Below are positions 58,604-61,750 of a stretch of DNA of 64,000 bases, in pieces. The first letter of the stretch is position 1. Each line of letters begins with the position of its first letter. This DNA comes from Selenobaculum gibii (lineage in GTDB: Bacteria > Bacillota > Negativicutes > ICN-92133): assembly GCF_030273445.1 (NCBI RefSeq), contig NZ_CP120678.1, positions 1,217,501-1,281,500 of the forward strand, written 5' to 3'. The position numbers and the translations under genes are program-made. The notes under the pieces were generated by a model. That model searched no databases, was not told the DNA's origin, and worked only from the letters and a program-made list of their open reading frames with translations.

Positions 58604-58659
58604 TGATATAATAATAGATAACTTTGGTGAGGGAACAGAGGCTATTAGCAGCCTCTGTT
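58604..58659 (+). promoter_or_regulatory. Extended -10 promoter and leader hairpin of hflX
   Basis: TGATATAAT (58604-58612) is an extended -10 (TGnTATAAT) without a good -35. Then AACAGAGGCT (58634-58643) pairs with AGCCTCTGTT (58650-58659), followed by ATTTCTTC, a possible weak attenuator in the leader. Confidence 0.45.
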
Positions 58660-58685
58660 ATTTCTTCATAATGGAGGCGATACTT

Positions 58686-60473
58686 ATGGACGATATATAT
58701 GGAGATACTGATGGAATAAAAAAGAGTATTTTAGATAATTTAAAAACTCTTTATCAAATGACAATTCCTTCTTATCAAATTATTACTGCTGATTTGGCAA
58801 GAAGTTTATTAGATTTTACAAGGCAATTAAATAAAGAAATTGCCATTTATGTGAACAGACGTGGCAACATTATTAAAATTGCAATTGGTGGCATAAAAAA
58901 TGTAAGTTTACCTGAAATCCGTGTTTCGAATCGCAAATTAAGTGGAGTTAGATGTATCCACACGCACCCTAATGGTGAATCTGATTTAAGTAGTCATGAT
59001 ATATCTGCTTTAAAACATTTGAAATTTGATGTTATGGCAGCTATAGCGGATGATTCACAGAATAATATTATAGTTTCTATTGCATTTTTGACGGGAGAAT
59101 GTGAAGAAAGAGATTCTTTTATAGTAGAAGAAATAAAAAGTTTGTCGATTTCAGCTATTGAACGATTAGACTTAAAGTATTTAACTACAATTATTGATAA
59201 TCGCCTTCTAAATCAATCTAATTTAATCGACTTAAATTTTTCGGAACGAGCAATTTTAGTTGGATTAGAGACAAAAAATAAAAAGATGCATTGGAGTATT
59301 AATGATTCCTTACATGAACTAAGTCAGTTAGCTGAGACTGCTGGTGCAGACGTTATATCTCAAATTCAGCAGAAGAGAGATTTGCCGGATAGCGCATTGT
59401 TTTTAGGAAAAGGGAAAATAGAGGAGTTGCTATTATTAATTCAAGATATACGAGCAACTCTTGTTATTTTTGACGATGAGTTATCACCATCACAACAAAG
59501 AAATATTGAAAATATATTAAATATAAAGGTTTTAGATCGGACAGCGTTAATTTTGGACATATTTGCACAAAGAGCACGTTCCTTTGAAGGAAAGTTGCAA
59601 GTTGAGTTAGCACAAATGCAATACCGCTTACCTAGAATAGGGGGGCAGGGACTCATTTTGTCCAGACTTGGCGGGGGAATAGGAACTAGAGGCCCCGGGG
59701 AGACGAAACTTGAAGTTGATAAAAGAAAAATTCGCAGTCGGATTACAGAGATTGAGCGGCAAATTAGCTTAATAAAAAAACAGCGTTCGTTACAAAGAGA
59801 AAATCGTTCCAAGAGCAATACGCCTACAGTTGCCTTAGTGGGGTATACAAACGCAGGAAAATCAACTCTTTTAAATTTGTTAACGAATGCTAATGTATTT
59901 GCAGAAAATAAACTTTTTGCGACGTTAGATCCTACTACTAGAAAATTGAATTTAGCGAATGCGAAAACAGTACTTTTAACAGATACGGTAGGATTTATTC
60001 AAAAGCTACCACATCAATTGATTTCTGCTTTTAGGGCCACATTAGAAGAGGTTCAAGAGGCTGATTTATTGTTACATGTTGTTGATTGTAGTCATCCTAA
60101 TTATTTAGAGCAAATAAATTCGGTTATGTCCGTTTTAAGTGAATTAAATGTTGATGATAAGCCCATGATTTTGGTATACAATAAATGTGATAAATTGTCG
60201 AGTATACCAACTTATCCAAAAGAAAATGAATTATATATTTCGGCTAAAAATCGTATTGGAATAGATTCTTTATTAAAGCAAATTGAAGAGTTTTTTCTAC
60301 AACAACATCTTGAACTTGAGTTGTTAATTCCATATAATGAAAGCGCATTAATTTCACAATTACATGAAATAGCAGTTGTACAAAAAATTGAATATGTTGA
60401 ATTAGGAAACTTAGTACAAGTTTCTATTCCTAGTGAGTATTTAGCAAAGTATGAGAAGTATAAAAACATATAG
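58686..60473 (+). CDS. hflX: GTPase HflX with N-terminal JAMM-like domain
   Basis: 595 residues, ~170 longer than E. coli HflX. Residues 1-~180 hold a motif His92-x-His94-Pro95 ... Ser102-x-x-Asp105 (HTHPNGESDLSSHD), the same spacing as RadC/JAMM metallo-domains. Then the HflX N-terminal subdomain (ETAGADVISQIQQKRDLPDSALFLGKGKI), the glycine-rich linker (LSRLGGGIGTRGPGETKLE) and the GTPase with P-loop GYTNAGKS (386-393), DTVGF and NKCD. HflX splits stalled or hibernating 70S ribosomes. I start at 58686 after GGAGG. Next is ynbB as in B. subtilis ynbA-ynbB. Confidence 0.93.
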   Translation: MDDIYGDTDGIKKSILDNLKTLYQMTIPSYQIITADLARSLLDFTRQLNKEIAIYVNRRGNIIKIAIGGIKNVSLPEIRVSNRKLSGVRCIHTHPNGESDLSSHDISALKHLKFDVMAAIADDSQNNIIVSIAFLTGECEERDSFIVEEIKSLSISAIERLDLKYLTTIIDNRLLNQSNLIDLNFSERAILVGLETKNKKMHWSINDSLHELSQLAETAGADVISQIQQKRDLPDSALFLGKGKIEELLLLIQDIRATLVIFDDELSPSQQRNIENILNIKVLDRTALILDIFAQRARSFEGKLQVELAQMQYRLPRIGGQGLILSRLGGGIGTRGPGETKLEVDKRKIRSRITEIERQISLIKKQRSLQRENRSKSNTPTVALVGYTNAGKSTLLNLLTNANVFAENKLFATLDPTTRKLNLANAKTVLLTDTVGFIQKLPHQLISAFRATLEEVQEADLLLHVVDCSHPNYLEQINSVMSVLSELNVDDKPMILVYNKCDKLSSIPTYPKENELYISAKNRIGIDSLLKQIEEFFLQQHLELELLIPYNESALISQLHEIAVVQKIEYVELGNLVQVSIPSEYLAKYEKYKNI

Positions 60474-60499: not shown

Positions 60500-61750
60500 A
60501 TGTATCCATTTTCAGAAAAAATTTTATTAACGAAACAACAATCCCTAATAGCATGTCGATCTTATTTTGAACGCGTTGAAGAAATTGCAGAAAAAAATAC
60601 ATTGAAAGTTCTAAATACATTACGTAAGCACAAAATTGCTGAGCATCATTTTCACACTACATCAGGCTATGCTTATAGTGATGCTGGAAGAGAAAAATTA
60701 GAACTTGTATGGGCTGATATATGCGGCGCAGAAAAGGCATTAGTTAGAACTCAATTTGTATCCGGAACTCATGCATTAGCATCTGTTTTATTTGGAATAT
60801 TGCGTCCAGGAGATGAGTTGCTATCCATAACGGGAACTCCATATGATACTATGCAAACGGTTATTGGATATCATGAGGAATCGGCAGGATCATTAAAAGA
60901 ATTTGGAATTTCATATAATGAAGTTCCAATGAAAAATGATAAAGTGGATTTAGAGGCTGTAAAAAAAGCAATTCATTCGAATACAAAGATGGTATTAATT
61001 CAAAGATCAAGAGGATATAGTTTACGAGCACCACTAACAATTGATGATATTGAAAAAATATGTACGTTTGTAAAATCAATTAAACATGATTGCATATGTT
61101 TTGTTGATAATTGTTATGGCGAGTTTGTTGATATAAGTGAACCAACCGCAGTTGGAGCAGATATTATGGCAGGGTCACTAATTAAAAATCCTGGTGGTGG
61201 TATTGCACCAACAGGAGGATATGTTGCGGGAAAAGCTGAATTAGTAGATTTAGTGTCTTATCGTTTAACTGCACCAGGAATCGGTAGTGAGTTAGGTGCA
61301 TCATTAGTAGATAATAGATTACTTTTCCAAGGTCTATTTTTGGCTCCGCATGTTGTTGCCCAGGCAATAAAAGGCGCAATTTTTGCTGCTGAATTTTTTA
61401 CTAAGTTAGGATATTATACATTGCCAGAAACAAGTGCGATTCGTAGCGATATTATTCAAGCAATTCAATTAAATAATAAAGAAAAAATGATAGCGTTCTG
61501 TCAAGGTTTGCAGAGATTTTCACCAGTAGATGCACATGTGAGTCCGGAACCTTGGGATATGCCAGGCTATTCTGATCAAGTAATTATGGCTGCTGGGACT
61601 TTTGTGCAAGGTGCGTCTATCGAATTAAGTGCTGATGGACCGATGCGAGCTCCGTATATTGTATATTTGCAAGGTGGTCTTACATTTGAGCACAGTATTA
61701 TTGGAATAATGGGTGCTGCTCAAGCAATAGAAGATATACATAATAGTTGA
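60500..61750 (+). CDS. Methionine gamma-lyase family PLP protein (YnbB, aluminium-resistance type)
   Basis: 416 residues, PLP fold type I, matching the Firmicutes YnbB family annotated as aluminium-resistance or methionine gamma-lyase-like. Blocks: HHFHTTSGYAYSDAGREKLELVWADICGAEKALVRTQFVSGTHALASVLFGILRPGDEL, FVDNCYGEFVD, and the PLP lysine in MAGSLIKNPGGGIAPTGGYVAG. Enzymatic reaction not known for certain. Placed right after hflX, as in Bacillus. Confidence 0.92.
   Translation: MYPFSEKILLTKQQSLIACRSYFERVEEIAEKNTLKVLNTLRKHKIAEHHFHTTSGYAYSDAGREKLELVWADICGAEKALVRTQFVSGTHALASVLFGILRPGDELLSITGTPYDTMQTVIGYHEESAGSLKEFGISYNEVPMKNDKVDLEAVKKAIHSNTKMVLIQRSRGYSLRAPLTIDDIEKICTFVKSIKHDCICFVDNCYGEFVDISEPTAVGADIMAGSLIKNPGGGIAPTGGYVAGKAELVDLVSYRLTAPGIGSELGASLVDNRLLFQGLFLAPHVVAQAIKGAIFAAEFFTKLGYYTLPETSAIRSDIIQAIQLNNKEKMIAFCQGLQRFSPVDAHVSPEPWDMPGYSDQVIMAAGTFVQGASIELSADGPMRAPYIVYLQGGLTFEHSIIGIMGAAQAIEDIHNS

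Follow-up and report, generated by a model that had tools for sequence, protein, structure and literature searches.

The HflX protein encoded in the analysed stretch of Selenobaculum gibii DNA (64,000 nucleotides, referred to as the window) carries an extra N-terminal region that is almost certainly a JAMM (JAB/MPN+) domain. The best explanation overall, to which we would give an even chance, is a JAMM metallopeptidase that is fused to a normal HflX and cuts a ribosome-associated polypeptide. HflX rescues stalled ribosomes and provides antibiotic and heat tolerance, and JAMM zinc proteases remove ubiquitin in human cells. To our knowledge, HflX has been studied almost only in its short forms. 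While HflX and JAMM proteins are each known, their combination appears to be undescribed: the open-access literature (subscription papers lay outside the search) contained nothing relevant linking HflX with JAMM, JAB, MPN or RadC. If the proposal is true, ribosome rescue in much of the Bacillota would include a hydrolytic step, i. e. a regulated cleavage on the ribosome of a kind not described before, and whole phyla would harbor naturally inactivated versions.

Architecture of the long HflX

The gene and the conserved part of its product comprise the following features, with residues numbered from the start of the longest open reading frame.

58671..60473, + strand: hflX, longest open reading frame, 600 aa; likely start at ATG 58686 (595 aa)
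58671..59240, + strand: extra N-terminal region, residues 1-190, about 185 extra aa, upstream of PF13167 and TIGR03156
59304..59567, + strand: HflX N-terminal GTP-bdg_N domain (PF13167), residues 212-299, E=3.5e-33
59571..59807, + strand: HflX middle helical region, GTP-bdg_M (PF16360), residues 301-379, E=1.5e-29
59826..60185, + strand: HflX GTPase domain (PF01926), residues 386-505, E=2.2e-24

An ordinary, complete HflX core stands behind the extra N-terminal region. PF13167, PF16360 and PF01926 all lie above their Pfam cut-offs, and the NCBIfam equivalog TIGR03156 (GTP_HflX) is matched from residue 193 onward with 483.6 bits against a cut-off of 216.75. Ribosome-bound HflX chains from cryo-EM are the best structural matches of the full-length model, which (pTM 0.54) was left out for placing the N-terminal domain on HflX or the ribosome. 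The long protein is the only HflX above the family cut-off in the window's genome. E. coli HflX, Listeria HflXr and mycobacterial HflX (5ady, 8uua, 8vki) have the HflX core and the hflX neighbourhood in common with it, but lack the 185-residue JAMM domain. Since a Shine–Dalgarno sequence GGAGG (58673-58677) stands 8 nt 5' of the second ATG, translation probably starts at 58686 (M6). The original prediction had been counted from this position, and its His92, His94 and Asp105 hence correspond to H97, H99 and D110 in the 600-aa numbering used here (+5).

Evidence for a JAMM domain

Within the extra N-terminal region, the predicted domain and its putative catalytic residues are located as follows.

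58761..59177, + strand: predicted JAMM/JAB-fold domain proper, residues 31-169, from the AlphaFold2 model and its structural matches
58836..58838, + strand: E56 (E51 from the second start), predicted catalytic Glu, aligned with the Glu of the RadC E-x-F segment (hhalign)
58959..58967, + strand: H97-T98-H99, with H97 and H99 as predicted metal ligands, aligned with RadC HNH and AMSH/Sst2 HTH
58989..59000, + strand: S107, predicted oxyanion-stabilising Ser of JAMM, and D110, predicted third metal ligand; roles by the motif definition in PMC300881

The site reads E56-x40-H97-T-H99-x7-S107-x2-D110, an exact match to EXnHS/THX7SXXD, the published JAMM motif of AfJAMM, Csn5 and Rpn11 (PMC300881). 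The H-T-H-P-(6)-S-x-x-D signature first noticed in the extension is indeed present (HTHPNGESDLSSHD) and constitutes the sole match of H.HP.{6}S..D in the six frames of the whole window. Its spacing was rightly equated with that of RadC, HNHP-x6-S-x2-D, of which the copies in the same genome read HNHPSGDPTPSKED and similar, and the upstream glutamate that was expected along with it is found in E56, 41 residues before H97. The single-sequence Pfam JAB matches of the window protein are weak (E 0.02-0.03; no JAB model reaches its cut-off), as would be expected if a chance motif sat on an unrelated extension. Yet, the pattern turns up in 2 of 200,000 shuffles of the window HflX, its conservation in dozens of diverged homologues refutes a chance origin, and fold and profile matches agree with JAMM, which leaves this explanation with a negligible probability.

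The AlphaFold2 model of the N-terminal domain, built with 12 sequences (pLDDT 81.4, pTM 0.79), found its best Foldseek match in RadC (2qlc, probability 0.94, E 3.8e-3). Upon realignment with VIA-align, RadC (Z 7.3) was followed by PfJAMM1 (Z 6.8), then by COP9 CSN5, Rpn11, AMSH, BRCC36 and other MPN proteins, with the matches spanning model residues 34-169 (from 31 for RadC). JAMM/MPN proteins account for 48 of the best 50 rows (Z 5.0-7.3); the predicted fold is JAMM-like and thus does not refute the original reading. The other two rows are the deaminases 9k3e (Z 5.5) and 5jfy (Z 5.1). Deaminases of the cytidine deaminase superfamily and JAMM proteins have a core fold in common, and these two rows could point toward a deaminase-like fold that acts on RNA bases. 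This already disfavoured option is very improbable in view of the 48 JAMM/MPN rows and of the conserved H-x-H..S..D with its Glu, which occurs without the H/C-x-E and C-x-x-C zinc motif of deaminases. Taken alone, the structural support is moderate (Z below 8, Foldseek E-values above 1e-3). With such middling Z scores, it is the concordance of fold, profile and motif that carries the assignment as a JAMM domain.

Pfam and NCBIfam scans placed no family above cut-off on the approximately 185 N-terminal residues, and the window protein alone gave only chance Cas12i matches among PDB sequences. When 51 homologous N-terminal domains were scanned singly against Pfam, Prok-JAB (39 of 51, best E 5.1e-5) and RadC (25 of 51, best E 4.2e-4) were by far the commonest matches. 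A single-sequence genome search with the N-terminal domain even reached a true RadC in genome G100 (E=5.4e-4). Moreover, hhalign of the N-terminal domains with a RadC alignment yielded P 4.6e-5 for all sequences and, once the degenerate lineages were excluded, 4.8e-6; the catalytic Glu, HxH, Ser and Asp were all in register. In an hmmsearch of the N-terminal profile against PDB sequences, the top 12 matches were all AMSH/Sst2 deubiquitinases (best E=0.009), in which HTHP..S..D was in register and the alignable part comprised the catalytic motif region only.

RadC (PF04002, 2qlc), the best structural match, shares with the HflX domain the JAMM core, HxHP-x6-S-x2-D and the upstream Glu. It differs in being unfused to HflX, in reading HNHP (all 34 RadC sequences used, which were, however, collected by that motif) instead of HTHP, and in a Glu-to-His spacing of 50 residues, compared with mostly 43 in homologues of the HflX domain and 41 in the window. 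Among these homologues, the HxH segment takes the form HTHP or HSHP. Membership of the RadC family was rejected because the isolated N-terminal region scores 14.7 bits on PF04002 and thus stays below the cut-off of 22.1; full RadC copies in the window's genome score 135-163. This genome encodes five full RadC domains and a partial one outside the window (G000:C1, positions 767626, 836233, 903823, 1689254, 2179728 and 2580737), and most sampled genomes of the phylum carry one or two.

AMSH/Sst2, Rpn11, CSN5, BRCC36 and PfJAMM1 likewise have the canonical EXnHS/THX7SXXD motif and the JAMM fold in common with the HflX domain, and the AMSH motif HTHPTQTCFMSSVD aligns directly with that of the HflX N-terminus. 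The JAMM deubiquitinases and PfJAMM1 cut ubiquitin, Nedd8 or SAMP conjugates, whereas no ubiquitin system is implied for the HflX domain, and their sequence identity to it is mostly below 17%. That AMSH-type deubiquitinases are the closest characterised sequence matches and PfJAMM1 the second structural match would also suit a peptidase that deconjugates or processes small proteins of the ubiquitin-like or sulfur-carrier kind (ThiS/MoaD/CysO type) and is tethered to HflX by chance. We consider this improbable: the fusion partner is constant and a ribosome factor, and the conserved neighbours, which were read by eye and in part scanned, included no gene recognisable as ubiquitin-like or E1-like.

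Distribution and fate of the catalytic site

The N-terminal JAMM domain was detected in 33 of 40 class relatives of the window's genome, and nearly all full-length hflX genes found in these relatives are of the long form. Across the phylum Bacillota, 55 of 299 genomes gave a match with a single-sequence query, which can miss diverged members and whose few weakest matches are RadC or doubtful. Further occurrences were found in 111 of the 148 Desulfobacterota sampled (the phylum of Desulfocicer) and in 50 of 117 sampled Cyanobacteria, while none of the 101 sampled Chloroflexota genomes had the domain. Long HflX proteins are thus not confined to clostridia, where they had been supposed to exist, but extend to Desulfobacterota and Cyanobacteria. 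Judging from these homologues, the HflX-linked JAMM domain is old and widespread, occurring in at least three phyla. A 2025 review lists N-terminal HflX extensions in several Clostridium and Paenibacilli, with JAMM, RadC and metalloprotease unmentioned (PMC12493154). One genome (G302) contains two HflX copies, L294 and L295, both of which match the JAMM domain query.

The state of the site was tallied from loci that had been fetched without a motif filter; conservation counts from motif-selected sets were put aside as main evidence, since most of their sequences had been chosen by the motif. In the window's phylum, 75 of 79 loci have the full E-HH-S-D set, one of the 75 being the true RadC of G100. 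In Desulfobacterota, the catalytic Glu is replaced by Gln in 52 of 56 loci with H, H and D kept, and 32 of 34 cyanobacterial loci have lost several site residues, with two divergent members retaining E-HH-D. R63, G65, G73 and R94 are kept in all lineages, including the degenerate ones. Within the window's own phylum, the expected conservation of the site residues thus holds among long HflX proteins. The original JAMM reading stands in fold and site, with the refinements that the domain is no RadC family member and that outside the Bacillota the Glu or the whole site is changed. In a tree of the HflX core, the Gln form (QHHD) is a single clade with full support, and the degenerate cyanobacterial forms cluster with one exception. 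A single gain of the JAMM domain followed by losses is likely, with backbone and root of the tree unresolved. Four loci of the window's own phylum (L281, L282, L283 and L285) match the N-terminal domain with a degenerate JAMM site and possibly represent independent losses.

Because the domain is kept without a working site in Desulfobacterota and Cyanobacteria, it must also bind or serve structurally. The pattern fits selection on the site in Bacillota together with a second, metal-independent role in all lineages. Probably, therefore, Bacillota possess an active zinc peptidase in this N-terminal domain, and the other lineages a pseudo-enzyme. Catalytically dead MPN subunits occur in the proteasome lid, eIF3 and EMC. 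The main rival takes the domain in all lineages as a metal-binding, but non-catalytic JAMM module, i. e. a structural or ribosome-binding extension that aids HflX docking or pushes H69 aside. It would account for the persistence of the domain with Gln in Desulfobacterota and without a site in Cyanobacteria, and for the four residues kept even in site-degenerate lineages. It also has a precedent in the mycobacterial N-terminal extension of 39-58 residues, which acts on rRNA helices by disordering them and without catalysis (PMC12493154). Left unexplained, however, is the joint retention of E, H, H, S and D in nearly all loci of the window's phylum, although E56 had served as a selection criterion at no stage of the analysis, and we regard this alternative as rather unlikely. 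That the domain is an active hydrolase in the window's lineage is fairly likely. E56 offers a clear one-residue test of catalysis, while the Gln-for-Glu forms of Desulfobacterota and the eroded forms of Cyanobacteria provide natural catalytic-dead variants for comparison.

Possible role on the ribosome and genomic context

In the preferred mechanism of an active JAMM metallopeptidase, H97, H99 and D110 would bind zinc, E56 would activate a water molecule and S107 would stabilise the intermediate, such that a peptide or isopeptide bond could be hydrolysed. Docked to an idle or stalled 70S ribosome at its 50S face, HflX-GTP would bring the JAMM domain, which is joined to ND1, near uL16/H38/H69. 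This placement is drawn by likeness to the short, unrelated mycobacterial extension: H69 is displaced by ND1, and the mycobacterial extension, attached at this end of HflX too, contacts uL16 and H38 and extends toward H69-H71 (PMC12493154). A domain tethered in this manner would face the intersubunit surface, which makes ribosomal protein tails, hibernation factors and nascent chains candidate substrates. The JAMM domain may then cut a ribosome-associated polypeptide, our best guess for the substrate, during splitting or rescue. With Glu exchanged for Gln (Desulfobacterota) or the site gone (most Cyanobacteria), the domain would remain as a non-catalytic part. The chance that the substrate resides on the ribosome is slightly short of even. 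Still more tentative is the full proposal that HflX splitting in much of the Bacillota is coupled to JAMM clipping of a ribosome-bound protein at the intersubunit face.

The gene downstream of the long hflX is the following.

60500..61750, + strand: methionine gamma-lyase family gene, downstream neighbour of the long hflX (PF06838, E=9.7e-187)

A homologue of this lyase occurs in 17 of 21 hflX neighbourhoods, and a mutL-miaA-hfq context lies beside hflX in several genomes (gene names read by eye; the lyase was tested with Pfam). The neighbourhood was considered as a pointer to the substrate and rejected, as mutL-miaA-hfq-hflX-Met-gamma-lyase is an ordinary hflX context.

A hairpin with 10 perfectly paired bp and a weak T-run, AACAGAGGCT-ATTAGC-AGCCTCTGTT, is located in the hflX leader (58634-58659, + strand) just 5' of the Shine–Dalgarno sequence, and TGaTATAAT lies ahead of it at 58604-58612. 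The hairpin had no Rfam match. Hairpins of the type GAGGCT..AGCCTC stand just 5' of hflX in five other loci (L114, L119, L121, L126 and L134), where they may be terminators of upstream genes; the rest of the 348 kb of neighbourhoods has none. In the window, the upstream gene is divergent, so the leader hairpin does not terminate a + strand gene; a role as transcription attenuator of hflX is possible.
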